Shown here piece by piece: positions 2,387 to 16,028 of a DNA stretch of 29,107 nucleotides; positions within the stretch are counted from its first letter, which is position 1, and every line of letters starts with the position of its first letter. This DNA is from a virus, in the IMG/VR virus record IMGVR_UViG_3300031707_001881, positions 1 through 29,107 of that record; one strand, written 5' to 3'. The notes beneath the pieces are model-generated. The model was not told the DNA's origin. It was given only the letters and a program-made list of their open reading frames with translations, and did not search any database. A program made the translations under genes and the position numbers.

Positions 2387-2479
2387 ATGCAAACCCAATT
2401 CATTGAAGATTTGAAAAAGGAAATTAGATTATTACGTTGGGAACTGAAACAACTAACAGAGGCAAAGAAACTATGGTAA
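2387..2479 (+). pseudogene. HNH-endonuclease tail fragment (30-residue open frame)
   Basis: ATG at 2387 opens a 30-residue frame containing FIEDLKKEIRLLRWELKQL. This matches the C-terminal tail of the HNH protein encoded at 3066-3647 (IEELKKEIRLLRLQV). The frame ends at a TAA overlapping the start of the next gene (ATGGTAA). No HNH catalytic part precedes it. It could be a relic left by loss of an HNH gene, or a short leader peptide that couples translation into the exonuclease gene. GGG just before the ATG is a poor ribosome site. Confidence 0.5.
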
Positions 2480-3069
2480 ATATCAGGTACCATGAAATCC
2501 CGGGATATGATGTAAGTTTTCCCTCGGTTACATCGTTAATAGAACTCTATGCTCAATATGGACTAATCAATGTTTTTATCCCGAAGTCTGATAACAGGGC
2601 GTCTATCGGCACTACAGCCCACGCCATTATCGCCAGGATTAACAAGGGAGGGCATGTAGACGATAAAGAGTGGGATACCCTGGACAAGAGGACTCAAAGC
2701 GCTGTCATCGCTTTCCTACGCTGGCAGAAGGACACTGGATTTAAGCCAAGAATATGCGAGGAACTACTTTATTCACTGAAGTACGGCCTGGCTGGTCATG
2801 CAGATGCGATAGGGACGATTAAACATTCCGTGGGAGTTTTCGATTGGAAGCTCGGAGATATTAAATGTGAACGCGTTAAGTATCAATTGAGCGCCTATGG
2901 ATTTTTGTACTTGGAGCAATTTCCTAATCGTACACTCAATCGAGGGTTTAGAGGCGTTCATCTTGATACAGAAACTGCGACTTACAGTGAAATGATTATG
3001 GATTTTGATGAAGCATCATACTACTTCAGAAAATTCTTAGCCTTCAAAAAAGAGGTAGGCATAATATGA
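2473..3069 (+). CDS. PD-(D/E)XK superfamily exonuclease (RecB/Cas4-like)
   Basis: A 198-residue protein. The nuclease motifs are in order: GTTAH near residue 46, EE at 96-97, GHAD at 108-111, the D-x-K core FDWK at 123-126 and QLSAY (QxxxY) at 138-142. This pattern is that of RecB-like exonucleases, which in phages usually resect DNA ends for recombination with an annealing protein; a probable one lies at 4244. I prefer the ATG at 2473 over the TTG at 2437 because the upstream stretch overlaps the HNH-tail frame and looks non-coding in this frame. AGAGG lies about 11 bases upstream. The stop overlaps the next ATG (ATATGA). Confidence 0.8.
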   Translation: MVNIRYHEIPGYDVSFPSVTSLIELYAQYGLINVFIPKSDNRASIGTTAHAIIARINKGGHVDDKEWDTLDKRTQSAVIAFLRWQKDTGFKPRICEELLYSLKYGLAGHADAIGTIKHSVGVFDWKLGDIKCERVKYQLSAYGFLYLEQFPNRTLNRGFRGVHLDTETATYSEMIMDFDEASYYFRKFLAFKKEVGII

Positions 3070-3647
3070 CAATTAAACTCGGCACGATGGTTAGGGGTAC
3101 CGATATAGGTTTGAAAGATAAATACCATTACTGGGTTCGGCATTCCTGTATAGGTTGTGGTAAAGAACGATGGGTTATGTTACGGAACAGGAAACCCCAA
3201 AATTCGAAATGCTGTTCGTGTGCGAATAAAAAGGAAATGCCGAGAGGTTCTGCATCTAAAAGTTGGAATGGGGGACATCACATTACAAGAGGATACGTGA
3301 GAATCTATATTCCCTCAGATGATTTCTTTTTCCCCATGGCTGGTCATAGATGTTATATCCTTGAGCACCGTCTCGTTATGGCGAAGAAGCTAGGCAGATG
3401 TTTGCAGAAATGGGAGCACGTGCATCACAAGGGAATACGTTATGCCGACATCAGAAACAAGAGTGATAATCTAGATGACAATTTGGAACTTACCACAGTA
3501 GGAAGCCACAGTAGGGAGCACAGCAAAGGCTATCGGGACGGCTATGCTAAAGGCCTTATTGATGGCAGGAATCAACAGATAGAGGAACTGAAAAAGGAAA
3601 TCCGATTGCTCCGGTTACAAGTAAATCGTGAGGTAGGGATACTATGA
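3066..3647 (+). CDS. HNH endonuclease with N-terminal zinc ribbon and coiled-coil tail
   Basis: A 193-residue protein. The N-terminal part has CIGC (28-31) and CCSC (49-52), a zinc ribbon. The HNH core is EHRLVMAKKLGR (100-111), HVHHKG (118-123) and DNLDDNLELTTVGSHSREH (134-152), typical of free-standing phage homing-type nucleases. Residues 165-193 form a short amphipathic tail (IDGRNQQIEELKKEIRLLRL) that recurs without its gene at 2387 and 15936. It overlaps both neighbours by ATGA, so it is embedded in the early operon rather than sitting as a recent lone insertion. Likely role: DNA nicking or cutting, self-spread, or packaging support. Confidence 0.85.
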   Translation: MTIKLGTMVRGTDIGLKDKYHYWVRHSCIGCGKERWVMLRNRKPQNSKCCSCANKKEMPRGSASKSWNGGHHITRGYVRIYIPSDDFFFPMAGHRCYILEHRLVMAKKLGRCLQKWEHVHHKGIRYADIRNKSDNLDDNLELTTVGSHSREHSKGYRDGYAKGLIDGRNQQIEELKKEIRLLRLQVNREVGIL

Positions 3648-4081
3648 AGCTCGCCGAAATCTACGCACAAATTCCAGCCTCCACTTGCCCACCTAATTGT
3701 GGTGAGTACTGCGGTATTCTATGGCCTAGCATGGCTGAGATAAGAAATATTCAAGCGTGGTGCGATGGAAAACATATTGAGTTCAAAGATTTCAATATGT
3801 TCGTAGGCTTGGAGTGCCCATATCTTGATAATGAGAAACGATGCACTATCTATCCAGTTAGACCTTTCCTCTGTCGCATCGCTGGCGTGAGTTCCGACTT
3901 ACCGTGTCCGCTAGGTAAAAATGTTCCCAAGAGAATATTAAATCATGCTCAAAGTGATTATCTATACACGCAGATTTACTTACGCGGTAAAGAGAAACCG
4001 CGTACTGAAAAACATAGGAAATTATTGAGGGAAATTCTAAAGGAGGCGAGTAATGTCAAACGAGATAGAACGGGGACCTAG
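3644..4081 (+). CDS. YkgJ-family cysteine-cluster protein
   Basis: A 145-residue protein with cysteines at 15, 19 and 23, and the block CPYLDNEKRCTIYPVRPFLC (58-77), then another Cys at 88. The C-x8-C-x-IYPxRPxxCR pattern is the signature of YkgJ-type proteins, which are thought to hold a metal or Fe-S cluster. Function is not established for the family. The start overlaps the HNH stop (ATGA). The last residues overlap the next small gene, whose AGGAGG lies inside this gene. Confidence 0.75.
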   Translation: MKLAEIYAQIPASTCPPNCGEYCGILWPSMAEIRNIQAWCDGKHIEFKDFNMFVGLECPYLDNEKRCTIYPVRPFLCRIAGVSSDLPCPLGKNVPKRILNHAQSDYLYTQIYLRGKEKPRTEKHRKLLREILKEASNVKRDRTGT

Positions 4082-4229
4082 AGACGAGCCTAAAATCACT
4101 ATTGAGATACGTCCTGGACGGTGGGGAAAGATATTTCATCTGTTCGATGGATACGGAGGAGAGGTACGATTCCCACAAAAGGACGCTGTCAAGATGGCCA
4201 AGCAGATACTCAAGGAACAAAATAAATAG
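4053..4229 (+). CDS. Small unknown protein
   Basis: A 58-residue protein (begins MSNEIERGPRDEPKITIEI). AAAGGAGG sits 7-8 bases before the ATG, a strong site, which supports it as real although it is short and overlaps the preceding gene by 29 bases. It is predicted to be mostly beta strand followed by a basic C-terminal helix. No family recognised. Confidence 0.6.
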   Translation: MSNEIERGPRDEPKITIEIRPGRWGKIFHLFDGYGGEVRFPQKDAVKMAKQILKEQNK

Positions 4230-4243
4230 GAGGTTAAAATCAC

Positions 4244-5599
4244 ATGGCAATAGCAAAACAACCACCGAAGGCAACAGCCAAAGCAGTAGCAAAGGCGAAT
4301 GACCAGGCAATGCAGGATAAGGCTAGACAGAAGCAGATGGTACCGCTCCCAGCGGAGTTCAAGGCACTCGAGATAGTACGGCAGCGCGTCCGGGAGATAC
4401 GAGAGTTTATCGCTCGAGGTCTTTTGGAGAAGGGCGTTGACTACGGCAGGATACCGGGCGTAAACAAGGATATGCTCTTCAAACCAGGCTGCGAAATGCT
4501 CTTATTGAATTATTGTATCGTGGTGGACCCGCCGGAAATAGACGATAAGAGCGACTTTGAAAAGGGCATCTTCCGCTACAGGATTATGCTCCGTGGCTAT
4601 GACAAGGAAACTCGTACCTATGTAGGCATGGGAGTAGCCTCATGCAGTTCATTCGAGACTAAATACCGCTATCGCTGGTTATCATCATATCAATTACCCG
4701 ATAGCATGAGGATTTTGGGTTTTAATGCGGGAACAGGCAAGTTTGACCCTGAGATACTCAAAAAGGTTTGGGTAGCTGATAAAGGCGATGCTGCCTTTCG
4801 TTTTAAGAAAGTTGGAGAAAGTTCTTACCCTCAATGGCGGATTGAGAATCAAGATACCTGGGATTTAGAGAATACCATACTGAAACAAGGTGTTACTCGA
4901 GCGCTGCGGGCTCTCACCCTCAATGTTACCGGCGCTGACCGTCTCTTTATCAACGAGAAGGATTTGGAAGCGCTCGGAATGTCGGACCTAGACGATACCG
5001 ATTTTGTTGAAGGCGAATATAAAGAAGTGGACTCGGAAACAGGAGAAATTACCACATCGGAGAAACCCACTCAGGCAGCAGCTCCGACTCCAGCGCCAGC
5101 TCCTAAAACAGCAACTCCAGCGCCAACTCGGGCAGATACAGGAGGTGAGCCGACTCCGGCACCACGTCCGTTATCTTCTCCGACTACACAAAAACCACAG
5201 GAACACCCATGTCCGAAACACCCCGGGCAAGAGTTTAAGAACTATCCGACAAAGGCTGGCGGTACCGTATGGGCACATAAGACAGGCATGGGCTCGGACG
5301 GAAAGCCTACATGGTGTTTTGAGGATGAGGTTTTGAAAGAACAAAAAGCACAGGCACAAACACCGGCTCTGGCACCTGATGATATGGACGCGGTTGATGT
5401 TAAGAACAATGAGGAGTTTTTGTCTGTACTCAAAGAGTTAGAGGAGAAGTTGGGCTGGCATGGTGAGCAGCTCAAACACTTTCTCGAAACTAATTACCCT
5501 ACGTCCGGCACCGATGTACGTGATTTGCCGGTAGCTGTCCGTAGGCCACTGCTCAAAGACCTTCATGCGCTTTGGAAGTCCGGCCTAGTAACCAAATAA
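4244..5599 (+). CDS. Probable single-strand annealing / ssDNA-binding recombination protein
   Basis: A 451-residue protein. Residues about 60-240 contain LEKGVDYGRIPGVNKDMLFK followed by PGCEMLL, then YRIMLRGYDKETRTYVGMGV and NTILKQGVTRALRALTLNVTGA. This set is common in phage proteins found beside recombination genes, and I infer a single-strand annealing role; the exact family name is not certain. A Pro/Ala/Thr-rich linker runs from about 270 to 320. A CPKH...WAH...WCFE group near 321-365 looks like a zinc module, and a helical C-terminal domain follows. AGGAGG lies upstream of the ATG. Its position after an exonuclease fits an exonuclease/annealase pair. Confidence 0.6.
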   Translation: MAIAKQPPKATAKAVAKANDQAMQDKARQKQMVPLPAEFKALEIVRQRVREIREFIARGLLEKGVDYGRIPGVNKDMLFKPGCEMLLLNYCIVVDPPEIDDKSDFEKGIFRYRIMLRGYDKETRTYVGMGVASCSSFETKYRYRWLSSYQLPDSMRILGFNAGTGKFDPEILKKVWVADKGDAAFRFKKVGESSYPQWRIENQDTWDLENTILKQGVTRALRALTLNVTGADRLFINEKDLEALGMSDLDDTDFVEGEYKEVDSETGEITTSEKPTQAAAPTPAPAPKTATPAPTRADTGGEPTPAPRPLSSPTTQKPQEHPCPKHPGQEFKNYPTKAGGTVWAHKTGMGSDGKPTWCFEDEVLKEQKAQAQTPALAPDDMDAVDVKNNEEFLSVLKELEEKLGWHGEQLKHFLETNYPTSGTDVRDLPVAVRRPLLKDLHALWKSGLVTK

Positions 5600-5611
5600 A
5601 GGGGTGATACA

Positions 5612-6028
5612 ATGGGATTACCTTATGCTGAGGACGTACGGCATTATTGGCAAACGAGCGCATCCTCACCTGATGTTTGGATAGATAGAGCTAAAAAAAT
5701 AATCGGGGATTTGGATGGTGCTATATTGGCCGAGGGATTTGGTGAGGTGAGTGGACACGGTGCCTATATGCTGGCCTTCCGGATAAAGGATAGTAAATTC
5801 AAGGTGGTATGGCCTGTTTTGCCGTCTATTAGTGGTAAAACCCAAGCTGCAAAACGACAAGCTGCGACAATGCTATTTCACGATATTAAAGCTAAAGCCA
5901 TGACAGCAAGTGTCTTGGGTGCTGATGCTGCCTTTTTCTCTTACATGATGCTCCCCGACGGCCGAACGGCTAGTGAACTAGCAACGCCAGAGTTGTCAAA
6001 TGCTTTCCCATTACTTTTGAAGGAATAA
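5612..6028 (+). CDS. Conserved-looking phage protein, function unknown
   Basis: A 138-residue protein. Notable stretches are SGHGAYMLAFRIKDSKFKVV, then WPVLP, and AAKRQAATMLFHDIKAKAM with GADAAFFSYMMLPDGRTASE. The compact alpha/beta look resembles small phage proteins found next to the putative annealing protein, but I cannot name the family. A GGGGTGA ribosome site precedes the ATG, and the gene follows the annealing gene by 12 bases, so a role in the same recombination step is likely by context only. Confidence 0.6.
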   Translation: MGLPYAEDVRHYWQTSASSPDVWIDRAKKIIGDLDGAILAEGFGEVSGHGAYMLAFRIKDSKFKVVWPVLPSISGKTQAAKRQAATMLFHDIKAKAMTASVLGADAAFFSYMMLPDGRTASELATPELSNAFPLLLKE

Positions 6029-6029
6029 G

Positions 6030-6386
6030 ATGCCAAGACCGAGGTTAGAACATGAAAACGTTTTGCGAATCCGGCCTCAGGAGCTAAAGAAGCTAACCAT
6101 ATTCCAGCTAGGTATGCTGGTAAAGTTAGCTTCTATGGCTGCGGGATCGCCCAGGTCCGGGTATGTCTGTGGGAGCTCCGGCGCTCCGCTCACGCTTGAG
6201 CAAGTAGCCGAGGAACTGAAAACTACCTACAGCTTGGTGAGTAAAAACGTGGAACTGCTACAAAATGCCGGCTTCATCGTTTTATCGGATAGCGGTATCT
6301 CAATAATCAACTGGTCCCGGTGGCTGGATACGCGGACGGCCTACCAAAGAGAGCTAATGCGGAGACGAAGGAGGCAAACACAATGA
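6030..6386 (+). CDS. Winged-helix DNA-binding protein (replisome-organiser-like)
   Basis: A 118-residue protein. Residues about 55-100 (LTLEQVAEELKTTYSLVSKN, then VELLQNAGFIVL) form a helix-turn-helix followed by a wing, as in the N-terminal domain of phage replication initiators. The C terminus ends in a very basic tract (RRRRRQ). It lacks the C-terminal helicase-loader domain of full-length DnaD/O-type proteins. It begins one base after the preceding stop and lies just upstream of the ATPase gene, so it may recognise the repeat array at 7956-8109. That link is inference. Confidence 0.6.
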   Translation: MPRPRLEHENVLRIRPQELKKLTIFQLGMLVKLASMAAGSPRSGYVCGSSGAPLTLEQVAEELKTTYSLVSKNVELLQNAGFIVLSDSGISIINWSRWLDTRTAYQRELMRRRRRQTQ

Positions 6387-6718
6387 GCGATTATCAATGC
6401 CCTAAATGCAAGTCCGGCAACATCAGTAAAGAGGACACACGTATCCGTTGTTTCTCTTGTGGATTTTTTGAGAATTTAGAGGACTACCCGATAGCCAGAC
6501 CAGCCCCAGTGATTTATGCTCTGCCGGAGCAACTACAGAGTCTTGAGGATAGAGTGCAAAATGTTGAGGAGTTAGTAGCAACCCCAGGTAGCGTGCCATA
6601 TCAGTTCCGCCATCAGTTGCAACAAATCAAGGGGGAATTAGCATATCTTAGAACCAATGCCAAACCTATTAAGCCGCCAAAGAAACAAAAGGCTGGATTC
6701 AAAGAAATCGAGGTTTGA
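6383..6718 (+). CDS. Zinc-ribbon protein with coiled-coil segment
   Basis: A 111-residue protein. I chose the ATG at 6383 because GGAGG lies 8-9 bases upstream and it forms ATGA with the preceding stop; a longer in-frame start at 6320 would overlap the winged-helix gene by 67 bases. CPKCKSG (6-12) and CFSCG (24-28) form a zinc ribbon. Residues 55-95 (LQSLEDRVQNVEELV, then QLQQIKGELAYLR) are heptad-like. The C terminus is lysine-rich. Possibly a primase-like zinc-binding accessory protein, but no catalytic part is present. Confidence 0.65.
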   Translation: MSDYQCPKCKSGNISKEDTRIRCFSCGFFENLEDYPIARPAPVIYALPEQLQSLEDRVQNVEELVATPGSVPYQFRHQLQQIKGELAYLRTNAKPIKPPKKQKAGFKEIEV

Positions 6719-7966
6719 TTGTCAAAACCTCAAATCACCGAACTCGCAGACGGCTACGAGTATAACTGGACTGACGAGAAGCTCATCATTAAGGCTTCCC
6801 GGGTCCGTGTTCATACGTCTGACGGTAGAGTAACAGGTGAACTTCTTATTACAGGGCAGAATAATAAAGCTATCTACCCACAAACTTCATTCAATTTTAC
6901 CTCAGACCGCACCCGTGGTAGTTTAATTAAGACGCTCACAGAGAGAGGTGGACAGTGGAAGTGGGATGATATTATCAACCAACTTTGCCTTAGTGTAGTA
7001 GAGAGAGCGCGGCAGGGTGAGCCAGTTCAGGAGTTATGGACATGTGATGAAATTGAGGCTCCAGAGTTTCTTTTGGAACCTCTTATTTATAAGGGCTTGC
7101 CAACTGTGATATTCGGCGAGAAAGCAGTTTGCAAGTCTACAATCTCACTTTTAGTTTATTCCTGCCTAATCTTGCCTTGGACTGACAATCCTTTATCGTG
7201 GAAAGCACCAGTTCACCCTGTTAAAGTTTTACTCGCTGATTGGGAGGTCAATGCGGATGTGGCAAAGTATAATCTAAAACGAATACAACAAGGTATGGGT
7301 TTACCACACTTTCCTCTGATTTACCGGCGCTGTAAATTGCCTCTGGTAGACGACATCGAGCAGATAAAGAAGCATCTCGACGACACTGGTGCTGAGGTCC
7401 TTATTATTGACTCTCTAGGTTTTGCGGCTGCTGGCGACCTGAACAATGCAGACCAAGCGTTGAGATTTGCCAATGCCCTGCGGCAACTAAATTGCGCTGC
7501 CTTTATCATCGCTCAAACGAGTAAGGATAGGAAGTCCAAGGGCAAATCAGTATATGGGAGCACCTTCTTTGAGTATTTTAGCCGTAATATCTTCGAGCTA
7601 CGAAAGACTAGAGAGGATAACGAGGACTCATTTGACATCGCTATCTTCAATACGTACTGTAATCTTGGAAGGCGGGCGAAACCTATGGGTTACCATATCC
7701 AGTTTGACGACATCAAAAAAACTGTGCATATAGAGCAAGCCGAGATTACGGCGGCAGACTTGGTTGAACGCCTTGGTACATGGTCGAGGATATACGATAA
7801 ATTGAAAACTCAAACATGGAAGGCAAAGGAACTGAGCGATGAGTTAGGCATATCTCTTGACCTTGCATCCCGGACGTTAAAACGGTACCAACAAAAAGGC
7901 CAAGTGGCTAAGTTGCCGGATGGCTCCTGGGGATTGGTCGCCAGGCATGAGGAGGTGTCTAGTTAA
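6719..7966 (+). CDS. RecA/RepA-like AAA ATPase with C-terminal winged helix
   Basis: A 415-residue protein. The start is a TTG directly after the previous stop, with GAGG 6 bases upstream; no ATG lies near. Residues 133-141 (GEKAVCKST) are a Walker A loop in which the usual Gly before Lys is Cys. VLIID at 227-231 is Walker B, and FIIAQTSKD follows as a sensor-like strand. This is the plan of RepA-type hexameric helicases and related phage ATPases. The end (KAKELSDELGISLDLASRTL) is a winged helix for DNA binding. The TGTCTA array begins within its last codons, so it probably acts in replication initiation. Confidence 0.7.
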   Translation: MSKPQITELADGYEYNWTDEKLIIKASRVRVHTSDGRVTGELLITGQNNKAIYPQTSFNFTSDRTRGSLIKTLTERGGQWKWDDIINQLCLSVVERARQGEPVQELWTCDEIEAPEFLLEPLIYKGLPTVIFGEKAVCKSTISLLVYSCLILPWTDNPLSWKAPVHPVKVLLADWEVNADVAKYNLKRIQQGMGLPHFPLIYRRCKLPLVDDIEQIKKHLDDTGAEVLIIDSLGFAAAGDLNNADQALRFANALRQLNCAAFIIAQTSKDRKSKGKSVYGSTFFEYFSRNIFELRKTREDNEDSFDIAIFNTYCNLGRRAKPMGYHIQFDDIKKTVHIEQAEITAADLVERLGTWSRIYDKLKTQTWKAKELSDELGISLDLASRTLKRYQQKGQVAKLPDGSWGLVARHEEVSS

Positions 7967-8109
7967 GTGTCTACTAGACAGGGGTGTCTACTAAATGATT
8001 AAATGCTACGTTCAAAGCAATCGTGTACTAGACATGTCTACTAGACAGGTGTCTACCTACTAGACAACTAGGGAAAAACTATAGTTTTCCCTTGTCTAGT
8101 AAGTGTCTA
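7956..8109. repeat. Array of TGTCTA / TAGACA sites (candidate origin or operator region)
   Basis: Eleven exact hexamers lie in 154 bases. TGTCTA occurs at 7956, 7968, 7985, 8035, 8050, 8093 and 8104; TAGACA occurs at 7975, 8029, 8042 and 8061. Two perfect 13-base palindromes TGTCTACTAGACA lie at 7968-7980 and 8035-8047, and a wider pair is at 8050-8066. Nothing in 7967-8142 looks coding. The array sits between the ATPase gene and a small gene with a strong ribosome site. A protein dimer must be the reader; whether it starts replication or represses transcription cannot be decided from sequence. Confidence 0.75.
8071..8091. repeat. AT-rich inverted repeat inside the TGTCTA array
   Basis: GGGAAAA flanks a perfect ACTATAGT palindrome (8078-8085), followed by TTTCCC; the arms match with one extra A on the left. 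It sits between the dense half-site cluster and the last two half-sites. It could be a melting element of an origin or a short transcription hairpin, although there is no T tract suited to termination. Confidence 0.5.
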
Positions 8110-8124
8110 CTGGTGTAGTATAAA
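8092..8124 (+). promoter_or_regulatory. Possible promoter overlapping the last two TGTCTA sites
   Basis: TTGTCT at 8092-8097 is followed after 18 bases by TAGTAT (8116-8121), with an overlapping TATAAA at 8119-8124. Two TGTCTA half-sites (8093 and 8104) fall within it, so a protein binding them would block polymerase. Both boxes are poor matches to consensus. Confidence 0.3.
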
Positions 8125-8142
8125 ATAAAAGGAGGTTTAACA

Positions 8143-8352
8143 ATGGCACAGCAACCAATCGTAGTCATTAACTCAGTGGAGAACCTCAAGATGGGAACAT
8201 CGGTCGAAGAGGGGCAGATAAAGGTTAGGATAGCCTTTGACTGCAAGATGAAATCGGAGGAGATTGCTCAGGTAGCCGACATTACCAAGGCCGGGGCGGT
8301 TTCTATCTCGGTCACCACCCGGCAATTAACCTTCGGTGGGGAGGCTAAATAA
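8143..8352 (+). CDS. Small unknown protein behind the repeat array
   Basis: A 69-residue protein, begins MAQQPIVVINSVENLKMGTS. AAAGGAGG lies 8-9 bases before the ATG, one of the strongest ribosome sites in the window. It is predicted to be mainly beta strand with a central helix. It is the first gene after the TGTCTA array and so may be controlled by it. No family recognised. The stop overlaps the next ATG (AATAATGG). Confidence 0.6.
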   Translation: MAQQPIVVINSVENLKMGTSVEEGQIKVRIAFDCKMKSEEIAQVADITKAGAVSISVTTRQLTFGGEAK

Positions 8353-8747
8353 TGGCAAACGAACCAAAATTCCCGCTACATTTCAAATGCCCGAGCTGTA
8401 AGAGTGATAAAGGCACCTTGCAGTTGTGTTCTCAAAAGGAAGTGGCCGAAGGCCTCTTGCCTCAGGACGTGCCGGTGGCCACAGCGCATCATAACATACT
8501 CCTGGCTGATGAAGGGAAAATTCAATCTGGAGTTCTCGCTGGTAAAAAGGCCCGGATGCTCTTTTATTTCGCTGACATTTGCTCCAAATGCGGCAACCAG
8601 TATATTTACCTGGTGGAGATGAAGGACATTATAATGCCGGCTGGCGCTCTGCACGGTCAGGCCCCGCGTATAGTATTGCCAGGCATGGGCCCGCTTCCGC
8701 CGGACATTGGAAAGAGACACTCGAGAGGCGATGGCGGAAGTATTTAA
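8352..8747 (+). CDS. Zinc-ribbon protein, function unknown
   Basis: A 131-residue protein with CPSC (13-16) and CSKCG (77-81), a split zinc ribbon holding a beta-rich domain (AGKKARMLFYFADICSKCGN). The C terminus is rich in Pro and Gly. It starts at the last base of the previous stop and its last 17 bases overlap the VRR-NUC gene. Confidence 0.6.
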   Translation: MANEPKFPLHFKCPSCKSDKGTLQLCSQKEVAEGLLPQDVPVATAHHNILLADEGKIQSGVLAGKKARMLFYFADICSKCGNQYIYLVEMKDIIMPAGALHGQAPRIVLPGMGPLPPDIGKRHSRGDGGSI

Positions 8748-9033
8748 GCTCACCGAGAAGGACTTTCTGCGGCAGATTAAGGACCTTGCCAAGATTTGCC
8801 ATTGGCGGGTGTATCATCCTTTCTTGAGTAAATGGAGTGAGCGGGGATACCCTGATATAACCCTAGTACGTCCCCCACGCCTCATCTTTGCAGAGTTAAA
8901 GGCTGAAAAGGGTGTGCTGAGTGAAAGCCAATGTGAATGGGCGGAGTTGTTACAGGCCTGCCCTGGTGTTGAGTATTACTGCTGGAAGCCGTCTGATTTT
9001 GATGCTATAGTGGAGATATTGAAGCGATGCTAG
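8731..9033 (+). CDS. VRR-NUC domain nuclease
   Basis: A 100-residue protein from the ATG at 8731, chosen over an upstream in-frame TTG at 8707 because GAGAGG precedes it and the core domain needs no more sequence. RGYPDITLV (38-46), FAELKAEKG (53-61) and the following ESQCEW give the D, E-x-K and Q residues of the VRR-NUC branch of PD-(D/E)XK enzymes. Stand-alone VRR-NUC proteins in phages act on branched or flapped DNA such as Holliday junctions. The end overlaps the next gene by 7 bases (GCGATGCTAG). Confidence 0.85.
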   Translation: MAEVFKLTEKDFLRQIKDLAKICHWRVYHPFLSKWSERGYPDITLVRPPRLIFAELKAEKGVLSESQCEWAELLQACPGVEYYCWKPSDFDAIVEILKRC

Positions 9034-9359
9034 ACAAGAGACTACTTAAGAAGTTTACCATTGAAGATTGTAACCAGGTTAGAAGAGAACTTGGGGAATC
9101 CTTGCGGCTGACAAAGGAACGGTTAAGACGGTTAAAAAGGAAAGAGAAGGAGAATCCCTCCTGGGCGGCCTATGATAAATATGCTGACGCTTTTGTAGGG
9201 ATAGATATTCGGATTGAAGAACAGCAGGCCGTCAGGGAAGAAATCGAACAGGATATTATATTAGTAGATGGGCGAGCCTGCGAAATAATTGCAGAATCAA
9301 AGCGAGCGGTAGAAAAAGAAAGAAAAGATGGCGAAATTCAGTTGGAGTTGAAGATTTGA
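9019..9359 (+). repeat. Direct repeat, copy A (341 bp, contains a gene)
   Basis: Starts at TTGAAGCGATGCTAGACAAG and runs through the small gene; the same sequence, diverged, occurs at 10729-11069. The first 18 bases are the end of the VRR-NUC gene, and they recur in copy B where there is no VRR-NUC gene. This suggests copy B was made from copy A. Confidence 0.85.
9027..9359 (+). CDS. Helical phage protein, first of two paralogues
   Basis: A 110-residue protein, highly charged and almost wholly helical (RLTKERLRRLKRKEKENPSW, then the strongly conserved AAYDKYADAFVGIDIRIEEQ). By hand, about 87 of 110 residues match the copy at 10737, with the differences concentrated in the last 30 residues. 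The ATG overlaps the VRR-NUC stop by 7 bases. Coiled-coil oligomerisation is likely; function unknown. Confidence 0.7.
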   Translation: MLDKRLLKKFTIEDCNQVRRELGESLRLTKERLRRLKRKEKENPSWAAYDKYADAFVGIDIRIEEQQAVREEIEQDIILVDGRACEIIAESKRAVEKERKDGEIQLELKI

Positions 9360-9393
9360 GTAAGCCAATAGTTGAAAGCAGGGGGATTAAGAT

Positions 9394-9885: not shown

Positions 9886-9922
9886 TGACACCTTACTTCC
9901 AGGATAAGAGGATAAAAATCTA

Positions 9923-10696
9923 ATGGCATTAGAACAGTTGGAACTAGAAACAGGACTTAATAAGGTGGAAGTTGCTATCACACTACTCCAAGCATGGGAA
10001 CCGCCAGAAGGTTATTATTTAGCCTTTAGTGGGGGTAAGGATAGTGTAGCGATTTATGCTCTTGCCCAAAAAGCGGGAGTAAAGTTTGATGCTCATTATT
10101 GTGTTTCTCCGATAGACCCGCCACAGATTTACCAGTTTATCAAAGAGAATTATCCCGATGTTCAATGGGATTTTCATGCTAGGGGATTTTGGAAGTTGGT
10201 TGTCGAAAAGGGATTGCCAATGCGAAACGTAAGATGGTGTTGTGAAATTATCAAGGAGGCAGGCGGGAATGGGCGAACAATAATAATGGGGAATCGCAGA
10301 GCAGAAGGTGGCAAACGAAGGAAACAATGTTATGTGGAAACTCCTGAACAGCGTGCCAAGAGTCCATATCGCCAATCGACTAAAACCTTTTTACGCCCCA
10401 TCATCAATTTCGACAACTTTGACATCTGGCAATATATCCGAGAAAACAACCTGCCCTATTGTTCGCTTTACGATGAAGGATTCAAACGACTTGGTTGTGT
10501 GTTATGCCCCTTTTCTCGGCAAATAGAACGAGAGGAACTTTACTTTCCAAAGATAGTAGCTAACTGGAAGCGGGCTTGTGAACGTATTGTAATGAGACAT
10601 AAAGCCAATGGAAATATGACTAGGAAGGGTAAACCATTGAAACATTGCTTTGAAACAGGCGAGGAATTATATCAATGGTGGACAAGCCGAAAATAG
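9923..10696 (+). CDS. PAPS-reductase-like PP-loop protein with cysteine cluster
   Basis: A 257-residue protein. SGGKDS at 36-41 is the PP-loop that binds ATP or adenylated substrate. Cysteines at 106-107, 180, 192 and 195 (PYCSLYDEGFKRLGCVLCPF) match the four-Cys set of phosphoadenylyl-sulphate reductase and DndC-type proteins, where they hold a 4Fe-4S cluster. Phages often carry this family; roles in DNA or RNA modification are proposed but not fixed. No other Dnd-type genes are seen here, so phosphorothioation cannot be claimed. It shares a cassette with the DnaB-like gene. The ribosome site (AAGAGG) is about 10 bases away. Confidence 0.85.
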   Translation: MALEQLELETGLNKVEVAITLLQAWEPPEGYYLAFSGGKDSVAIYALAQKAGVKFDAHYCVSPIDPPQIYQFIKENYPDVQWDFHARGFWKLVVEKGLPMRNVRWCCEIIKEAGGNGRTIIMGNRRAEGGKRRKQCYVETPEQRAKSPYRQSTKTFLRPIINFDNFDIWQYIRENNLPYCSLYDEGFKRLGCVLCPFSRQIEREELYFPKIVANWKRACERIVMRHKANGNMTRKGKPLKHCFETGEELYQWWTSRK

Positions 10697-10728
10697 CAGT
10701 CAAACGCTGTAGTCAAGGGGTTGTGGGG

Positions 10729-11069
10729 TTGAAGCGATGCTAGACAAGAGATTACTTAAGAAATTTACCATTGAAGATTGTAACCAAGTTAGAAGAGAAC
10801 TTGATGAGTCTTTGAAATTGACCAAAAAGCGGCTAAGGCGATTGGAAAGGAAACAGTCTGAGAATCCTGCCTGGGCAGCCTATGACAAATATGCCGATGC
10901 CTTTGTAGGTATAGACATTCGGATTGAAGAGCAACTAGCCGTCAGGGAAGAGATTGAGCAGGATATTATATTAGTAGACGAGCGAGCCGTGGAACTTACC
11001 GAACGAGTGAAGCAACTTGCGGAAAAAGAAAGACGGGAAGGCGAAGTCCAGTTAGAGCTAGGACTTTAA
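10729..11069 (+). repeat. Direct repeat, copy B (341 bp, contains a gene)
   Basis: Second copy of 9019-9359, the same length by hand. It begins with TTGAAGCGATGCTAG, the end of a VRR-NUC gene that is absent here, after 32 bases of non-coding DNA following the PAPS-reductase-like gene. Confidence 0.85.
10737..11069 (+). CDS. Helical phage protein, second of two paralogues
   Basis: A 110-residue paralogue of the gene at 9027. Residues 1-22 are identical and residues 46-81 differ at one position, while the C-terminal third has drifted (ELTERVKQLAEKERREGEVQ). Conservation with local divergence suggests that both copies are still expressed and may have partly separated roles. There is no good ribosome site beyond the copied GAAGCG, because the VRR-NUC frame that would couple it is missing. 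Confidence 0.7.
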   Translation: MLDKRLLKKFTIEDCNQVRRELDESLKLTKKRLRRLERKQSENPAWAAYDKYADAFVGIDIRIEEQLAVREEIEQDIILVDERAVELTERVKQLAEKERREGEVQLELGL

Positions 11070-11128
11070 CGCCTCTATTTTACAAAGGGTTGACGCTGAA
11101 GTATATTTAAGAAAGGGATTCTTTACTC

Positions 11129-11551
11129 ATGGTTATAGCGGTAGCGCTCATGGGTAAACTCAAGGGTAATTGGAAACTAACCGATAGGCAGTACGTTTTC
11201 TGCCGTCGTCTCTTAAATCTCTACCGTCTACATACCGGCCAGAAGCTTGACAAACGTTTACGTGGCTGGCTCTTCTTCAATCAAAAAAGCTGGCTGCCGG
11301 CTGCTGATTATTTGGCTTTTCTGCCGTTGTTTGATATTTGTGCCGATTGCGCCGAGACGCAGGGTATAGACTGTGGGACTCCGTGCCAGGATTTGAAAGT
11401 CTGTCTCGATATTTACAATATCATATCTGACCACTCGGATTATTCGCCAAGAAAAATAGGTGACTCGGACTCTAGTTATTTTTCCGAACCACCTATTTTA
11501 CACGGCCAAGCTGCGGAGCTGCTACGATTTATTGACTCGTTTGAGCTTTGA
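11129..11551 (+). CDS. Unknown protein with cysteine cluster
   Basis: A 140-residue protein. The basic N-terminal half (NWKLTDRQYVFCRRLLNLYR) is helical. CADCAETQGIDCGTPCQDLK (residues about 71-90) holds four closely spaced cysteines, likely a metal site. An ATG at 11150 is an alternative start; I keep 11129, which has AAAGGGA about 11 bases upstream. The last 30 bases overlap, tail to tail, the last gene of the minus-strand operon. Confidence 0.5.
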   Translation: MVIAVALMGKLKGNWKLTDRQYVFCRRLLNLYRLHTGQKLDKRLRGWLFFNQKSWLPAADYLAFLPLFDICADCAETQGIDCGTPCQDLKVCLDIYNIISDHSDYSPRKIGDSDSSYFSEPPILHGQAAELLRFIDSFEL

Positions 11552-11782
11552 TGGTGGCGGTTCGTCAATTACCTCAACGGGTTCTTGGACTCCCCCTACT
11601 CCGGGTGGTGCCCCTGGTATCCACCCAAGCTCTCCACACCGTGTCATGGCTACCTGGTCGAAGTCCAGCGCCAGCTCCAGGGCTGCGCTCACCCACTTTT
11701 TAAGGTTCGTCCCGTCCTCGACGCAGGCATACTTGACCTTTTTATAAAGGTCGTCATCTATTTCGATGTTAAGTTGTTTCAT
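11522..11782 (-). CDS. Ribbon-helix-helix DNA-binding protein (CopG/Arc-like)
   Basis: An 86-residue protein. The first 40 residues (MKQLNIEIDDDLYKKVKYAC, then LKKWVSAALELAL) show the strand-helix-helix order of ribbon-helix-helix repressors, which act as dimers. A Pro/Gly-rich acidic tail follows. Its ATG overlaps the stop of the AbrB-like gene upstream (ATGA), so the two are translated together. Either could be an antitoxin-type or phage regulatory protein; no toxin gene is seen beside them. Confidence 0.7.
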   Translation of the reverse strand: MKQLNIEIDDDLYKKVKYACVEDGTNLKKWVSAALELALDFDQVAMTRCGELGWIPGAPPGVGGVQEPVEVIDEPPPSKLKRVNKS

Positions 11783-11949
11783 ATTAAGTTCTTCTCCTTC
11801 TCCGGTGCGAGAACACAGAAACCATTAGGAACTATTATCACTTCGAGCTCGTCACCTTTTTTGATGTCGTGCTCTCTGCACCAGTTTTTGTCCAGCGCCA
11901 CCATTAGACGCTCTCCTACTTTTGCGACGTTACGCTTGACTATTTCCAT
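11779..11949 (-). CDS. AbrB/MazE-type DNA-binding protein
   Basis: A 56-residue protein. MEIVKRNVAKVGERLMVALD followed by KKGDELEVIIVPNGFCVLAP is the swapped-hairpin AbrB/SpoVT fold as found in short transition-state regulators and antitoxins. It is encoded between two small genes in the minus-strand operon, overlapping the one before it by 20 bases and the ribbon-helix-helix gene after it by 4. It may control the divergent promoters at 13136-13385, by inference. Confidence 0.65.
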   Translation of the reverse strand: MEIVKRNVAKVGERLMVALDKNWCREHDIKKGDELEVIIVPNGFCVLAPEKEKNLI

Positions 11950-12142
11950 TGTGCCCCCTCGCTTTCTCGATAAGGTAATAATTAGCTGCTATGTGTATCT
12001 CTTTGATGGTGGCATGGTTCCCCAGGACGGCCACCGTCTCGCCAGTTGCGGTATCGGTAATGTAAAGGTTGTGGTCGTCCTCGTGGGTGTCCAGGCCTGC
12101 TTCTCGCTGCTCCTTGGTGAGTATGTGCTTTTCCATTTTCAT
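11930..12142 (-). CDS. Small unknown protein
   Basis: A 70-residue protein (begins MKMEKHILTKEQREAGLDTH). TATGETVAVLGNHATIKEIH is a likely beta-hairpin and helix. Two ATGs lie 6 bases apart at the start, and GGGAG precedes the first. It overlaps both neighbours by a few bases, in keeping with an operon. No family recognised. Confidence 0.55.
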   Translation of the reverse strand: MKMEKHILTKEQREAGLDTHEDDHNLYITDTATGETVAVLGNHATIKEIHIAANYYLIEKARGHNGNSQA

Positions 12143-12360
12143 TCTCCCTTGCTCATTGCCTTTAAAATAGCCTGTCCTGTGCTATCAGAGCATGCAAACT
12201 CCAAACCTTGAATAAATCTATTAGCCCATTCTTGAGCATAACCATCAGAACACTTTTGCTCTTCGGTGTCAGTCCATCTTGTTTTCATGTACGTTATAAA
12301 TCTTGATTTCATTATGTCGTCCATTTGGTAGACAGTTGCGACTTCCTCATAAGTTTTCAT
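12139..12360 (-). CDS. Small unknown protein
   Basis: A 73-residue protein (MKTYEEVATVYQMDDIMKSR). I chose the ATG at 12360 over a start at 12402 because GAAAGGAGATAAG lies directly before it. It is acidic and helical, with a WTDTEEQKCSDGYAQEWANR segment. No family recognised. Confidence 0.55.
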   Translation of the reverse strand: MKTYEEVATVYQMDDIMKSRFITYMKTRWTDTEEQKCSDGYAQEWANRFIQGLEFACSDSTGQAILKAMSKGE

Positions 12361-12379
12361 CTTCTTATCTCCTTTCGTT

Positions 12380-12613
12380 TTATAGTCTCCTGCTCCAATC
12401 ATCGCGCCGGAAAGGATTGCAAACCAGGTTAAAAATGAAACGGTGGTATGTCTCCGCTCCGATGCGCTGTAATATGCCCCGGTGCTGCTCGATGTTTTGA
12501 GCTACGGCCTGAACGGTCTTACTCGGCTGCGTCTCGTAGTAGTGGCGCTGGCCGTCCTGGTCTGCCTGCTCTCCGCAGTCATGGCCAATCCTGGGCGTTA
12601 GCTCTTCCGCCAC
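12380..12613 (-). CDS. Small unknown protein with GTG start
   Basis: A 77-residue frame starting GTG with GAGGGGA upstream, overlapping the 3' end of the membrane-peptide gene. The sequence is Gln- and His-rich (HDCGEQADQDGQRHYYE) with a basic end. Gene order and overlap favour it as real, but composition gives little support. Confidence 0.4.
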   Translation of the reverse strand: MAEELTPRIGHDCGEQADQDGQRHYYETQPSKTVQAVAQNIEQHRGILQRIGAETYHRFIFNLVCNPFRRDDWSRRL

Positions 12614-12753
12614 GGCTCTTCCCCTCTCTTCACGTCTTTATTTATCTGCCGCCACTCTTTGACACGTTGTCGCAGCGCACTAATAGCGGAAGCTATCACG
12701 TAGAGCAAAGCAGCAAAGAATAAGACAGTGAAGATAACCAATATAACTTTCAT
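12598..12753 (-). CDS. One-pass membrane peptide
   Basis: A 51-residue protein. Residues 2-25 (KVILVIFTVLFFAALLYVIA) are a single hydrophobic span, followed by a basic tail (ALRQRVKEWRQINKD). AAAGGAGGTG lies 7-8 bases before the ATG. It overlaps the zinc-peptide gene (ATGA). Candidate roles are a small holin-like or spanin-like peptide or a membrane-targeting host-takeover peptide; position far from any lysis enzyme argues against lysis. Confidence 0.65.
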   Translation of the reverse strand: MKVILVIFTVLFFAALLYVIASAISALRQRVKEWRQINKDVKRGEEPWRKS

Positions 12754-12869
12754 TGTGTCTCACCTCCTTTCTGGCTGCACTCATGGCAACGACGGTACTT
12801 CTTGAGCTGGTACTTGCTTGTAGGTTTTCCGCATACCGGGCAGGTGTGGGTTTTCTTATCCTGTCGCAT
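12750..12869 (-). CDS. 39-residue zinc peptide
   Basis: CPVCGK (10-15) and CHEC (28-31) give a complete four-cysteine zinc knuckle in a basic peptide. AAAAGGAG lies upstream of the ATG and the stop overlaps the next start. Probably a nucleic-acid or protein-binding peptide. Confidence 0.6.
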   Translation of the reverse strand: MRQDKKTHTCPVCGKPTSKYQLKKYRRCHECSQKGGETQ

Positions 12870-12912
12870 TGTCTCGTTCTCCTTTTAATTCCCATGGTAG
12901 CCGACTAACTTA

Positions 12913-13083
12913 TTACTGGTTCTCATACGCTTGGCCTGACTCATTCAAGTACGTCTGGTGACAATCGAGCTTGTAGTACAGCTCTTGCAGGTCCTCCTGT
13001 TCTTTCTCAGTCAATGGCCGGCGTTTCTTTTCGGCTTCCAGTTTCTGGATAGATTCTCTCAGCGATGATTTGTAAGACTGCAT
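12913..13083 (-). CDS. Small helical protein, first gene of the minus-strand operon
   Basis: A 56-residue charged helical protein (SLRESIQKLEAEKKRRPLTE). CGAAAGGAGAGCGAG precedes the ATG. The promoter at 13136-13165 would give a leader of about 45 bases. No family recognised; the helix-turn-helix shape suggests a coiled-coil hairpin. Confidence 0.6.
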   Translation of the reverse strand: MQSYKSSLRESIQKLEAEKKRRPLTEKEQEDLQELYYKLDCHQTYLNESGQAYENQ

Positions 13084-13135
13084 TCTCGCTCTCCTTTCGT
13101 TTATTTGCCCGTACTCCGCAATACGAGCATACCTA

Positions 13136-13165
13136 ATTATAAAACTATTTTCCTAAGTATGTCAA
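13136..13165 (-). promoter_or_regulatory. Consensus sigma70-type promoter of the minus-strand operon
   Basis: On the minus strand TTGACA (13165-13160) is followed by an 18-base spacer and TATAAT (13141-13136). Both boxes match consensus exactly. The transcript would start near 13129 and run left through eight small genes to about 11522. Confidence 0.8.
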
Positions 13166-13270
13166 CTCTAGCCACGAGTGAAGCAGGAAAAAAAGAGAGA
13201 GAACAGAGGGGGGTCAGGTCCGGGGCTGTGCAGCTAGCTGTTAGCTTCGGAACTGTTGCCGGTGGCTGCC

Positions 13271-13320
13271 AACGGCCTTAAACCGACGCTCTGTGGTGAG
13301 CAAGGGAGGCCGTTAAACCG
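13271..13320. repeat. Inverted and direct repeats upstream of the small terminase gene
   Basis: AACGGCCT (13271-13278) pairs with AGGCCGTT (13307-13314). TTAAACCG occurs right after each arm (13278-13285 and 13313-13320), 35 bases apart. The surrounding 13166-13391 has no frame with a ribosome site. Phage packaging sites often lie just before or in the small terminase gene, so this is a candidate pac or cos region, by position only. Confidence 0.4.
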
Positions 13321-13379
13321 TTTATGAGGGGTAAACGTACCTGGCCACCTGGGATTAAACAGTTGGCGCTGGGAATGGG

Positions 13380-13392
13380 TATAATAGAGATA
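13380..13392 (+). promoter_or_regulatory. -10 box of a probable leaderless promoter
   Basis: TATAAT at 13380-13385, perfect consensus, ends 6 bases before the ATG at 13392, the same distance as in the early promoter. The -35 region is poor (TTAAAC at 13355-13360 with a 19-base spacer). There is no ribosome site before the ATG, which fits a transcript starting at the ATG. Confidence 0.5.
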
Positions 13393-14216
13393 TGGCGAAA
13401 GGTAAACCAGGGCAGCCGACTAAGTTCACGCCGGATAGAGTCGCAGTCATAATAGAAGAACTCAAAAAACATAACTACGCTTCCACGGCCTGCGATCAGG
13501 CCGGCGTTTCCGAAACAACATTCTATAACTGGCTGAATAAAGCAGAAGGCTATTTAACTAAGTTAATAACAGGAGATACTATAGGGGAAGAGGGGGAAAG
13601 ATATATTGAGTTCTTTGATTCCATAAAACGTACACGTGCAGAGAGCGAAAGTGGACTTCTGGGACTAATAGCGGACGCTGGCTCTAAACCGACACTGATT
13701 GAGAAGCGGACAATCGAGCACACGCTCAAGGACGGCAGTAACAAGACCGAGACAATAGAACGATGGAAGCCCGCGGACTGGACGGCTAACGCTTGGATAC
13801 TTGAGCGTACCAAGTGGGAGAAGTTCGGCCAGCACAGTAGCTTGGATATACAGCAGGCCGGCGTCGTATTCATCGAGAGACTACAACGAGCCAGGACAGC
13901 TCGTGTGGTAGATGGTGAGTTCAGAGAGATAGAAGACATCGCCAAAGAGCCAACAGTGATAGAAGAGCCAGGCCAGGCGCTTATACCAGCGCCAGCGAAG
14001 CGCAGCGAAGCTACAGAGAGACTCAGCACAGCACCCAGGCGCCGGCCAATCTTCGAGCTTATAGCCAAGACAAAAGAGAGACGGCAGCTTGCCACTTCGC
14101 AGATTGGTATTTCTGCGAACCCAGCAGACCAGGTAGAACCAGTAGAAGGGGAAGTCATTGAAGAGACGGCAGGCGTGGCAGAGCGCAGCGAGAAATTCGT
14201 GGGTGGAGAACGTTAG
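13392..14216 (+). CDS. Terminase small subunit-like protein
   Basis: A 274-residue protein. Residues about 10-55 (FTPDRVAVIIEELKKHNYAS, then ACDQAGVSETTFYNWLNKAE) contain a helix-turn-helix of the kind used by small terminases to grip the packaging site. A helical middle follows (SIKRTRAESESGLLGLIADA) with the WILERTKWEKFG end often seen in this family. The last 120 residues are Pro-, Glu- and Arg-rich and look disordered, longer than usual for this family. The large terminase lies 1.8 kb downstream rather than next door, with several small genes between. Confidence 0.75.
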   Translation: MAKGKPGQPTKFTPDRVAVIIEELKKHNYASTACDQAGVSETTFYNWLNKAEGYLTKLITGDTIGEEGERYIEFFDSIKRTRAESESGLLGLIADAGSKPTLIEKRTIEHTLKDGSNKTETIERWKPADWTANAWILERTKWEKFGQHSSLDIQQAGVVFIERLQRARTARVVDGEFREIEDIAKEPTVIEEPGQALIPAPAKRSEATERLSTAPRRRPIFELIAKTKERRQLATSQIGISANPADQVEPVEGEVIEETAGVAERSEKFVGGER

Positions 14217-14330
14217 TATTGATGAAGGCCTAGGTACATTGTGGGTGGGGAGGAGAGATTGGCTCCACCCTCGCCGAAACCTTAAAACAAAAAGAAGTCA
14301 ACAAGTAGGCAGGTAGGAAACTAGGTAGAC

Positions 14331-14720
14331 ATGAAGAAGGAGGACAAGGTGAGCAGGTTAAAGGAGCGGAAGCGGGCAAGGGAGAAGCGGCAGCGGTGGC
14401 GGAAGAGGGAGAGAAAGCGGCTCCAAAATTTGATTGCCAGCGCGGAACCGGTGGTGAACCCAGCGTGTCTGGGCATCGGCGCGGGAGTGGAGTCCTTACC
14501 CCCGCCGGAAATTCTGGAACGATTTAACATGGACGTAACGTTGTATGGCCAGGCCGCGATTGTGCCGCCGGACTTTGCGCGTGCCGGGGAGTGGATGCCG
14601 GCGTGGTGGGTAGGACTGCCAAAAATTTTGCGTGCGGTCACCTGGCCGGCCGTCTGGGTTCACAGGCGGTACTTGAAGTGGAAGTACCCGCCAACGTATA
14701 TTAAGTCGGAGGGAGATTGA
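14331..14720 (+). CDS. Basic N-terminal helical protein, unknown
   Basis: A 129-residue protein. The first 35 residues are mostly Lys and Arg (SRLKERKRAREKRQRWRKRE), a probable nucleic-acid-binding or coiled-coil helix. The C-terminal part is rich in Trp and Pro (GEWMPAWWVGLPKILRAVTW). The ribosome site is weak. The 14217-14330 gap before it holds a run of TAGG-like motifs and a weak GGGTGG/CCACCC pair, nothing firmer. Family not recognised. Confidence 0.5.
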   Translation: MKKEDKVSRLKERKRAREKRQRWRKRERKRLQNLIASAEPVVNPACLGIGAGVESLPPPEILERFNMDVTLYGQAAIVPPDFARAGEWMPAWWVGLPKILRAVTWPAVWVHRRYLKWKYPPTYIKSEGD

Positions 14721-14724
14721 TAAT

Positions 14725-15093
14725 ATGAATATCAATGAACGGCGTGCACAATTCGTTTATGATGCTGCAAGACTCGCAGCAGAAGCAGCACAAGCTCCAA
14801 TTATTCCTGTGCTCTGGAATGAACGAGAGCAAGATTTCAAAGACCAGTTTATCAAGGTAATTGAACGGCAATGTGGAGAGCAACGTTCATCTTCTCCCGA
14901 AGAGTTGCATGGTAGTTGGATGCAATCGTACTTGGCAATGGGGTGGGTTTACGGCGAAATATATGACCGAGAAAAACGTATCCATCCTGACCTCGTGCCA
15001 TATTGCCAGTTGGACAAATTAGAACGAGACAAGGATGCCGTGTTTGCGGCATTATGTGAGATTGCGAGGCAATTTATAACAGAGGGAGGTTGA
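14725..15093 (+). CDS. RyR-domain protein
   Basis: A 122-residue protein. SSPEELHGSWMQSYLAMGWV followed by YGEIYDREKRIHPDLVPYCQ and LERDKDAVF matches the RyR repeat, with its conserved W, GW, YG, HP and LVPY positions. In bacteria and phages this small domain occurs alone or fused to other domains and is thought to bind a ligand or protein. Its phage role is not known. The ribosome site (GGAGGGA) lies 9-10 bases before the ATG. Confidence 0.75.
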   Translation: MNINERRAQFVYDAARLAAEAAQAPIIPVLWNEREQDFKDQFIKVIERQCGEQRSSSPEELHGSWMQSYLAMGWVYGEIYDREKRIHPDLVPYCQLDKLERDKDAVFAALCEIARQFITEGG

Positions 15094-15094
15094 T

Positions 15095-15316
15095 ATGACA
15101 GGGAAACTATGTCACGGTAAGCGACACACACCAATAACGAGTGAGGCGCAACGAGGCTTGATGGGTGCTGAGTTGGCTCGGCGCAGGAAAGGGAAGAAGG
15201 GACGTATGCCCGGCATTACCCAGGCGGAGCTCGAGTCGCATCTGCACGAGGCAGGCGGTAAGAAACTACCAGCCAGGTCGAGAAAATCTAGCAGGAAGAG
15301 AGGCAAGAAACGATGA
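15095..15316 (+). CDS. Small basic phage protein
   Basis: A 73-residue protein, very rich in Lys, Arg and Gly. ITSEAQRGLMGAELARRRKG and MPGITQAELESHLHEAGGKK give a recurrent phage layout (a small helix, a basic loop, then an acidic helix), similar to short proteins of the DUF3008 type. The tail (RSRKSSRKRGKKR) suggests DNA or RNA binding. GGAGG precedes the ATG. Confidence 0.6.
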   Translation: MTGKLCHGKRHTPITSEAQRGLMGAELARRRKGKKGRMPGITQAELESHLHEAGGKKLPARSRKSSRKRGKKR

Positions 15317-15453
15317 AACGAACCAAGGACAAAATCAGAGGGGCACAATGTCCGGATTGCGGGAAGATGATGGAGAAGGTTGAACGCCCAATGTTTCTCG
15401 GCAAAACCGAGATTCTTTGGAGGTGCACCAACAAAAAGTGCAGCGAAAAGTAG
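15313..15453 (+). CDS. 46-residue zinc-ribbon protein
   Basis: CPDCGK (13-18) and CTNKKC (38-43) form a zinc ribbon. The start overlaps the preceding stop (ATGA), so translation is probably coupled; there is no strong ribosome site. It is the first of two neighbouring zinc-ribbon genes. Confidence 0.55.
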   Translation: MKRTKDKIRGAQCPDCGKMMEKVERPMFLGKTEILWRCTNKKCSEK

Positions 15454-15463
15454 GAGGTCTTTA

Positions 15464-15640
15464 ATGCCAAACAAGAAAAAAGTACGTTGTCACGGTTGCG
15501 GCGAGGTCTTTGACACAGAGGCAGAATCAATAATGACGCCCTGTCCGAAGTGTGGCATGAACCTCAAGGTAAACAAGCGGTGGGAGCCGGAAGGTGCGCA
15601 GTATGTGACGCCTGCAGACATGGATTTGAATAAATACTGA
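15464..15640 (+). CDS. 58-residue zinc-ribbon protein
   Basis: CHGCGE (9-14) and CPKCGM (27-32) form a zinc ribbon with spacing like that of DnaJ-type or FYDLN-type fingers. AGGAGG lies 8 bases before the ATG. The C terminus (VTPADMDLNKY) is unrelated to its neighbour. The stop shares a base with the next start. Confidence 0.65.
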   Translation: MPNKKKVRCHGCGEVFDTEAESIMTPCPKCGMNLKVNKRWEPEGAQYVTPADMDLNKY

Positions 15641-15936
15641 TGACTAAACGTAAGAACGTAGAAGTCAAAAAGAAAGCGCGACGCGTGATTGACCTGGGCC
15701 GGCTTCCGGCAAGTAAGGTAACCGTTGATGATGTTATTGAGGCGAATGATATAAACGAACTCCTGGCGGAAGTACAGTCAAAGCGAGCTAGTATTGACGG
15801 TCTACTTGTCGCCTGGCGAAATACTAATGGCACGATAAGTTACCGTTTCGTGAAAGCCACCGACACCACAGTTGTGGCTATATGCGAAATCGTTAAACAG
15901 CATTGCATACAACAAAGTTGGCTTAGAGAGGACTAA
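15640..15936 (+). CDS. Small unknown protein
   Basis: A 98-residue protein. The N terminus is basic (KRKNVEVKKKARRVIDLGR) and the rest reads as an alpha/beta fold (ASIDGLLVAWRNTNGTISYR). Start and stop are coupled to the previous gene (TGATGA). The stop lies directly before the HNH tail relic. Family not recognised. Confidence 0.55.
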   Translation: MTKRKNVEVKKKARRVIDLGRLPASKVTVDDVIEANDINELLAEVQSKRASIDGLLVAWRNTNGTISYRFVKATDTTVVAICEIVKQHCIQQSWLRED

Positions 15937-16028
15937 TCGATGGCCGAAATCAACAAATTGAGGAACTGAAAAAGGAAATCCGTTTACTACGGTGGCAGGT
16001 GAATCATTCCTATACTGACATCAGATAA
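15936..16028 (+). pseudogene. HNH-endonuclease tail relic before the large terminase
   Basis: In one frame these 93 bases read IDGRNQQIEELKKEIRLLRW followed by QVNHSYTDIR and a TAA at 16026-16028. This is the C-terminal tail of the HNH protein at 3066 (IDGRNQQIEELKKEIRLLRL, then QVN). DNA identity is also high at 3558-3628. There is no start codon or HNH core, and the frame begins right after the previous stop. It is best read as the remains of an HNH gene that once sat beside the terminase, a common site for HNH genes. Confidence 0.75.

Follow-up and report, generated by a model that had tools for sequence, protein, structure and literature searches.

The window analysed here (the whole stretch of 29,107 nucleotides, positions 1 to 29,107 of the IMG/VR virus record IMGVR_UViG_3300031707_001881) encodes one HNH endonuclease, and the C-terminal tail of this protein recurs at two further loci that have no HNH gene, one upstream of an exonuclease gene and one upstream of the large terminase gene (terL). 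Are these gene-less tails what is left of HNH genes that once occupied the two junctions, or are they short modules with a use of their own? A first-pass annotation, made from the sequence without database searches, had raised both, proposing either repeated HNH insertion and loss that always leaves the 3' end, or a short element such as a coupling leader or the recognition site of the nuclease. The tails, the genes next to them and the start signals described below all lie on the plus strand.

The HNH gene and its protein family

The HNH gene (3066–3647; 193 aa) is the only one in the window and has ATGA overlaps with both flanking genes. Its product carries a zinc ribbon at the N-terminus, the HNH core and, at the C-terminus, a GY-DG/coiled-coil tail; core residues and profile similarity identify it as an HNH endonuclease (PHROG 20891, HNH, E = 1.3e-17). 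The catalytic HH, N and downstream motif are invariant across the family, this copy included, and Pfam HNH_3 matches five of seven family members, the window copy falling below the cut-off. Scans of viral contigs recovered relatives of the HNH protein at 80 loci and, in all, 92 distinct ORFs of the family. Zinc ribbon and core are common to them, whereas the C-terminal part comes in two forms. In one, a GY-DG-GL-DG segment leads into a K/QEIRLLRWQ coiled coil; in the other the coiled coil is shorter, of the ID-LLE type, and ends in the same way. The recurring tail is the conserved C-terminus of these free-standing phage HNH proteins, a large family of ~90 ORFs in viral contigs.

Among solved structures none closely related to the family was found. 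When ~85,000 genomes of bacteria and archaea were scanned, the core peptide pattern gave eight hits, at chance only and none in an HNH-like protein, and the tail as a widespread stand-alone module of cellular genomes was rejected, none of the eight being an HNH-like tail. Rfam gave no match at E ≤ 1 over the whole window and no intron was found, so a structured RNA or intron at the tails was rejected; nor did the catalytic RNA of a group I intron turn up around the HNH gene.

The genome is plus-strand apart from a short run of ORFs on the minus strand at 11522–12402. A 110-aa gene is duplicated (9019–9318 and 10729–11028, 1710 bases apart; 80% DNA and 79% protein identity), and the intergenic stretch 8039–8120 holds inverted and direct repeats (TACTAGACAGGTGTCTACCTACTAGACAA / TTGTCTAGTAAGTGTCTACTGGTGTAGTA) resembling an operator or replication-origin site. 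A further HNH gene, of a different subfamily, lies past the right end of the window in the record of a near-identical phage (L151, 878–1426).

Three copies of the tail

Within the HNH gene the tail module (KGLIDGRNQQIEELKKEIRLLRLQVN) spans 3549–3626, as seen from repeat families, protein alignment and comparison across the family. Repeat families D3/D4 put the copies at 2402–2451, 3551–3627 and 15929–16005. The 3551 and 15929 copies are 82% identical in DNA (77 nt), and the 2402 copy is 76% identical to 15957 and 66% to 3579; alignment of the three stretches, proposed as a check in the first-pass annotation, gives 66–82% identity. The coordinates stated there are correct to within a few bases. 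At the protein level 15927–16004 (RGLIDGRNQQIEELKKEIRLLRWQVN) matches the tail of the HNH gene at 24 of 26 residues, and the product of 2390–2452 is 57–65% identical to each of the other two. Tail HMMs built from other phages, with the window left out, give the 15927 copy 42.5 bits and the 2318–2476 frame 30.2 bits, against a maximum of 9.4 in 100 dinucleotide shuffles of the window. The recurrence of the tail without its gene is therefore real at both 2351–2479 and 15927–16028, and well above chance.

Between the 15927 copy and the 3549 copy 13 of 26 codons have changed, and 11 of these 13 changes are synonymous (P = 4e-6 under neutrality). Truncation therefore came after a period of divergence in which both were coding HNH genes. 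Since both were protein-coding while they diverged, the 15927 piece most likely derives from a second HNH gene and is no recent copy of 3066–3647. The 2387 copy is more diverged from both others and reads RLLRW like other family members.

The terminase junction

The tail upstream of terL (15927–16028; RGLIDGRNQQIEELKKEIRLLRWQVNHSYTDIR, then a stop) follows a 98-aa gene (15640–15936) that is 62–82% identical in two related contigs, L012 and L013, and precedes terL itself, called at 16033–17475 (PHROG 2, terminase, E = 1.3e-10) with a possible true start at 16006. The terL genes of L012 and L013 are 91–92% identical to that of the window and start directly after the TAA/TGA of the 98-aa gene, with no tail at the junction, which reads GAGGATTAA-GTG-CCT-ATA in L012 and GAGGACTGATG-ATG-CCT-ATA in L013. 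In the window GAGGACTAA is followed by 69 bases of HNH tail, after which comes ATT-CCT-ATA. Relative to these contigs the window has an insert of 67–69 bp (15937–16005) that consists of HNH tail and has the stop codon of the 98-aa gene at its left edge. An assembly error is unlikely, as the insert is shared by L010, a near-identical phage in a different record. Homology to only part of an HNH protein and insertion relative to an empty site are both seen at 15927–16028, as expected of a degenerate remnant.

The homology does not start exactly after a stop codon, as had been described, as it begins ~8 bases before 15936 and overlaps the upstream TAA (15934–15936); that it ends 4 bases before the terminase start is correct for the ATG at 16033, but not for the terL start of the relatives, nine codons earlier. 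The full HNH gene that was to be sought at 15936 did not turn up upstream of terL in any relative, among the only two or three contigs comparable at this junction (L010, L012 and L013). Searches by DNA, by protein and with the RecT-like gene for further relatives of the terL and exonuclease junctions returned these three contigs and distant terminases.

No HNH N-terminus is recognisable in the insert at 15937, whose left edge falls within a short microhomology. Both features would also fit a partial insertion, in which repair of a nuclease-induced break, with homology on one side and microhomology on the other, copied no more than the 3' part of the HNH gene into a junction where the full gene never stood. 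We consider this unlikely in view of the remnants in other phages described below.

The exonuclease junction

The second gene-less tail, at the junction of a 54-aa gene and the exonuclease gene, lies in a short ORF (2351–2479), is recognisable from about 2390 (QTQFIEDLKKEIRLLRWELKQ), and overlaps at its end the ATG (2473) of the exonuclease gene (2473–3069; PHROG 298, exonuclease, E = 2.1e-16). Here too the homology is to part of the HNH protein only, at the tail HMM score of 30.2 bits. No relatives of the 2387 junction were found in viral_contigs or phages. Exonuclease relatives occur in four HNH-bearing records, and a full HNH gene at the exonuclease junction was rejected for these, their HNH genes lying elsewhere. 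Judged from its letters, the 2387 copy would be an HNH remnant as well, less certainly so than the 15927 copy.

HNH genes and remnants in related phages

The terL/portal junction of L013 (2915–3083) carries an internally deleted HNH gene, in which the N-terminal 25 residues are followed by a stop and the tail is out of frame. The 5' part (MPLLGDVKRARDIGLSNRNPYRLYI, then the stop) corresponds to the HNH N-terminus (HMM 1–21; weak alone, E = 0.047), and the 3' part (IDKLLEMQKELRTEIRLLRLENQQLQRSN) is the HNH tail (HMM 156–185), which lies in a different frame and immediately precedes the portal gene. This site is empty in the window and in L012. Among more distant relatives, terL is separated from a portal-sized ORF by a full HNH gene in L079 and L096; L101 has one between a 485-aa ORF and a portal homologue, and L108 has no HNH there. 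L013 also has a complete HNH gene (570–1172) within the end of its equivalent of the window gene 15464–15640, and this HNH gene is missing from the same site in the window and L012. Presence and absence at fixed sites among close relatives, as expected of free-standing homing endonucleases, is thus seen both there and at the pre-terL insert, and between them these related phages show HNH insertion in all three states: empty, occupied and decayed.

The host of the complete HNH gene in L013 is a small zinc-ribbon gene, which carries the insertion in its coding end (378–1172 overall); the HNH ORF ends in frame with the last 14 residues of the zinc-ribbon gene (AQYVTPADMDLNKY), and the host gene gains a new stop.

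Ninety records were searched in whole for partial HNH pieces. Those found include the two window tails, the L013 remnant with its two ends, a C-terminal half in L148, and pieces from the N-terminus, about 40 residues long in L146 and about 23 in L147; weak tail-like matches in L040 proved on inspection not to be HNH tails. The proposal that loss always leaves the 3' end does not hold, as L146 and L147 have N-terminal-only pieces and L013 has both ends. Repeated insertion and loss as such is supported by the empty pre-terL sites of L012 and L013, the deleted HNH gene of L013, and the full genes at terL/portal in distant relatives. The same data speak against partial insertion, in that the L013 remnant with both HNH ends requires internal deletion of a full gene, and N-terminal-only pieces occur in other records.

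Origin of the gene-less tails

We therefore regard it as most likely that both gene-less tails are remnants of HNH genes that once stood before the two phage genes and were mostly deleted. This reading rests on the homology of the tail to the HNH C-terminus, the two empty sites and the independent deletion in L013. The genes behind the tails would have encoded free-standing, probably homing, endonucleases. Genes of this family would insert at the junctions of tightly packed genes, in many cases at the downstream start codon or close to it, and the last bases of the HNH gene would then serve the displaced gene as its ribosome-binding site. Later, the greater part of the HNH gene would be deleted. 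At 15937–16005 the deletion would have taken everything upstream of the tail, leaving ~69 bp that include an AGGTGA able to serve terL. The 5' breakpoint would fall within a short resemblance between the host junction (GAGGACTGATGATG, L013) and the HNH tail (AGGCCTTATTGATG), which suggests deletion at microhomology.

A use of the tails in their own right, as a translational-coupling leader peptide or a free coiled-coil micro-protein, is very improbable. The 2387 ORF (30 aa from its ATG) does overlap the exonuclease start, and the tail protein is conserved at 24 of 26 positions between 3549 and 15927, but the synonymous pattern is explained by time spent within a coding HNH gene. Furthermore, 15927 has no in-frame ATG, GTG or TTG before its coiled-coil part, its tail is missing from L012 and L013 where terL is intact, and among 50 mostly long HNH-bearing records no tail-only model match was found outside this phage. 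The coupling leader of the first-pass annotation thus finds no support, the tail being the family's own C-terminus. Slightly more remote still is the conjecture that the tails persist as short coiled-coil peptides which, by pairing with the tails of HNH enzymes that arrive later, keep these from re-invading the junction; if true, such a peptide would be a scar turned immunity peptide, protecting an occupied junction. It is scarcely credible that the nuclease recognises the tail DNA as its target site: nothing beyond the repetition itself was found in its favour, the HNH genes of relatives sit at junctions whose empty sites lack the tail (L013 against the window and L012), so that insertion did not need it, and a nuclease cutting the end of its own gene would cut its own genome.

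Start signals at the displaced genes

The relatives begin terL with M-P-I-L-x-x-D-N-R, and the codon at this start position is GTG in L012, ATG in L013 and ATT (16006–16008) in the window and L010. Within the tail, three bases before the ATT, lies the Shine-Dalgarno-like AGGTGA (15997–16002), with a duplex energy of -9.8 kcal/mol; the value before the ATG at 16033 is +0.4, and that codon has no Shine-Dalgarno sequence. From these signals, terL would begin either at a rare ATT with a good Shine-Dalgarno site, as may be the case, or at the ATG at 16033 without one.

More generally, in 47 of 84 HNH genes the stop and the next start are less than about 20 nt apart, with a Shine-Dalgarno site in many cases inside the HNH 3' end, and the portal start of L013 is preceded by an AAAGGAG derived from the HNH remnant (-8.2). 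The 3' tail probably survives where it supplies the Shine-Dalgarno site of the displaced gene. A deletion taking the HNH 3' end would silence the next gene, a possible plain cause of the preference for the 3' end in this phage. Compact phages commonly have gene ends that overlap and contain a Shine-Dalgarno site, so the ribosome-binding site is a weak candidate for a special reason to retain the tail.

Comparison with known systems

In lactococcal Skunavirus 56 of 268 HNH genes are incomplete and were read as partially deleted remnants, one HNH site lies between terL and portal, and, as here, free-standing HNH genes differ in presence and position between close relatives, although the HNH subfamilies there are others (I-HmuI-, PacI- and GVE2-like) (PMC12724721). 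By comparison, the pieces in the window are as small as 69 bp, too short for gene calling, and lie on the start regions of terL and an exonuclease gene. For the free-standing homing endonucleases of T4-like phages, whose genes are likewise intergenic or gene-adjacent, a cycle of gain, degeneration and deletion has been proposed; homing has been shown there, whereas for the HNH family of the window it is presumed (PMC2988022). HNH genes are known to cluster beside essential genes such as terminases, in a survey of whole genes that includes intron-borne ones, whereas Rfam finds no intron in the window (PMC10448857). The HK97-type HNH packaging nuclease, discussed in the same survey, also lies beside terL, but the absence of HNH from the terL junctions of close relatives argues that it is no fixed packaging partner in this clade.

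The finding is a further instance of known HNH decay, ordinary in kind; the size of the scar is less usual, as is the likely change of the terminase start signal by it. One selfish-gene cycle is seen empty, occupied and decayed in a small clade of uncultured phages and their distant relatives. Tiny repeated ORFs before essential phage genes can be the scars of homing genes, and such a scar can alter the start signal of a gene as essential as the terminase.
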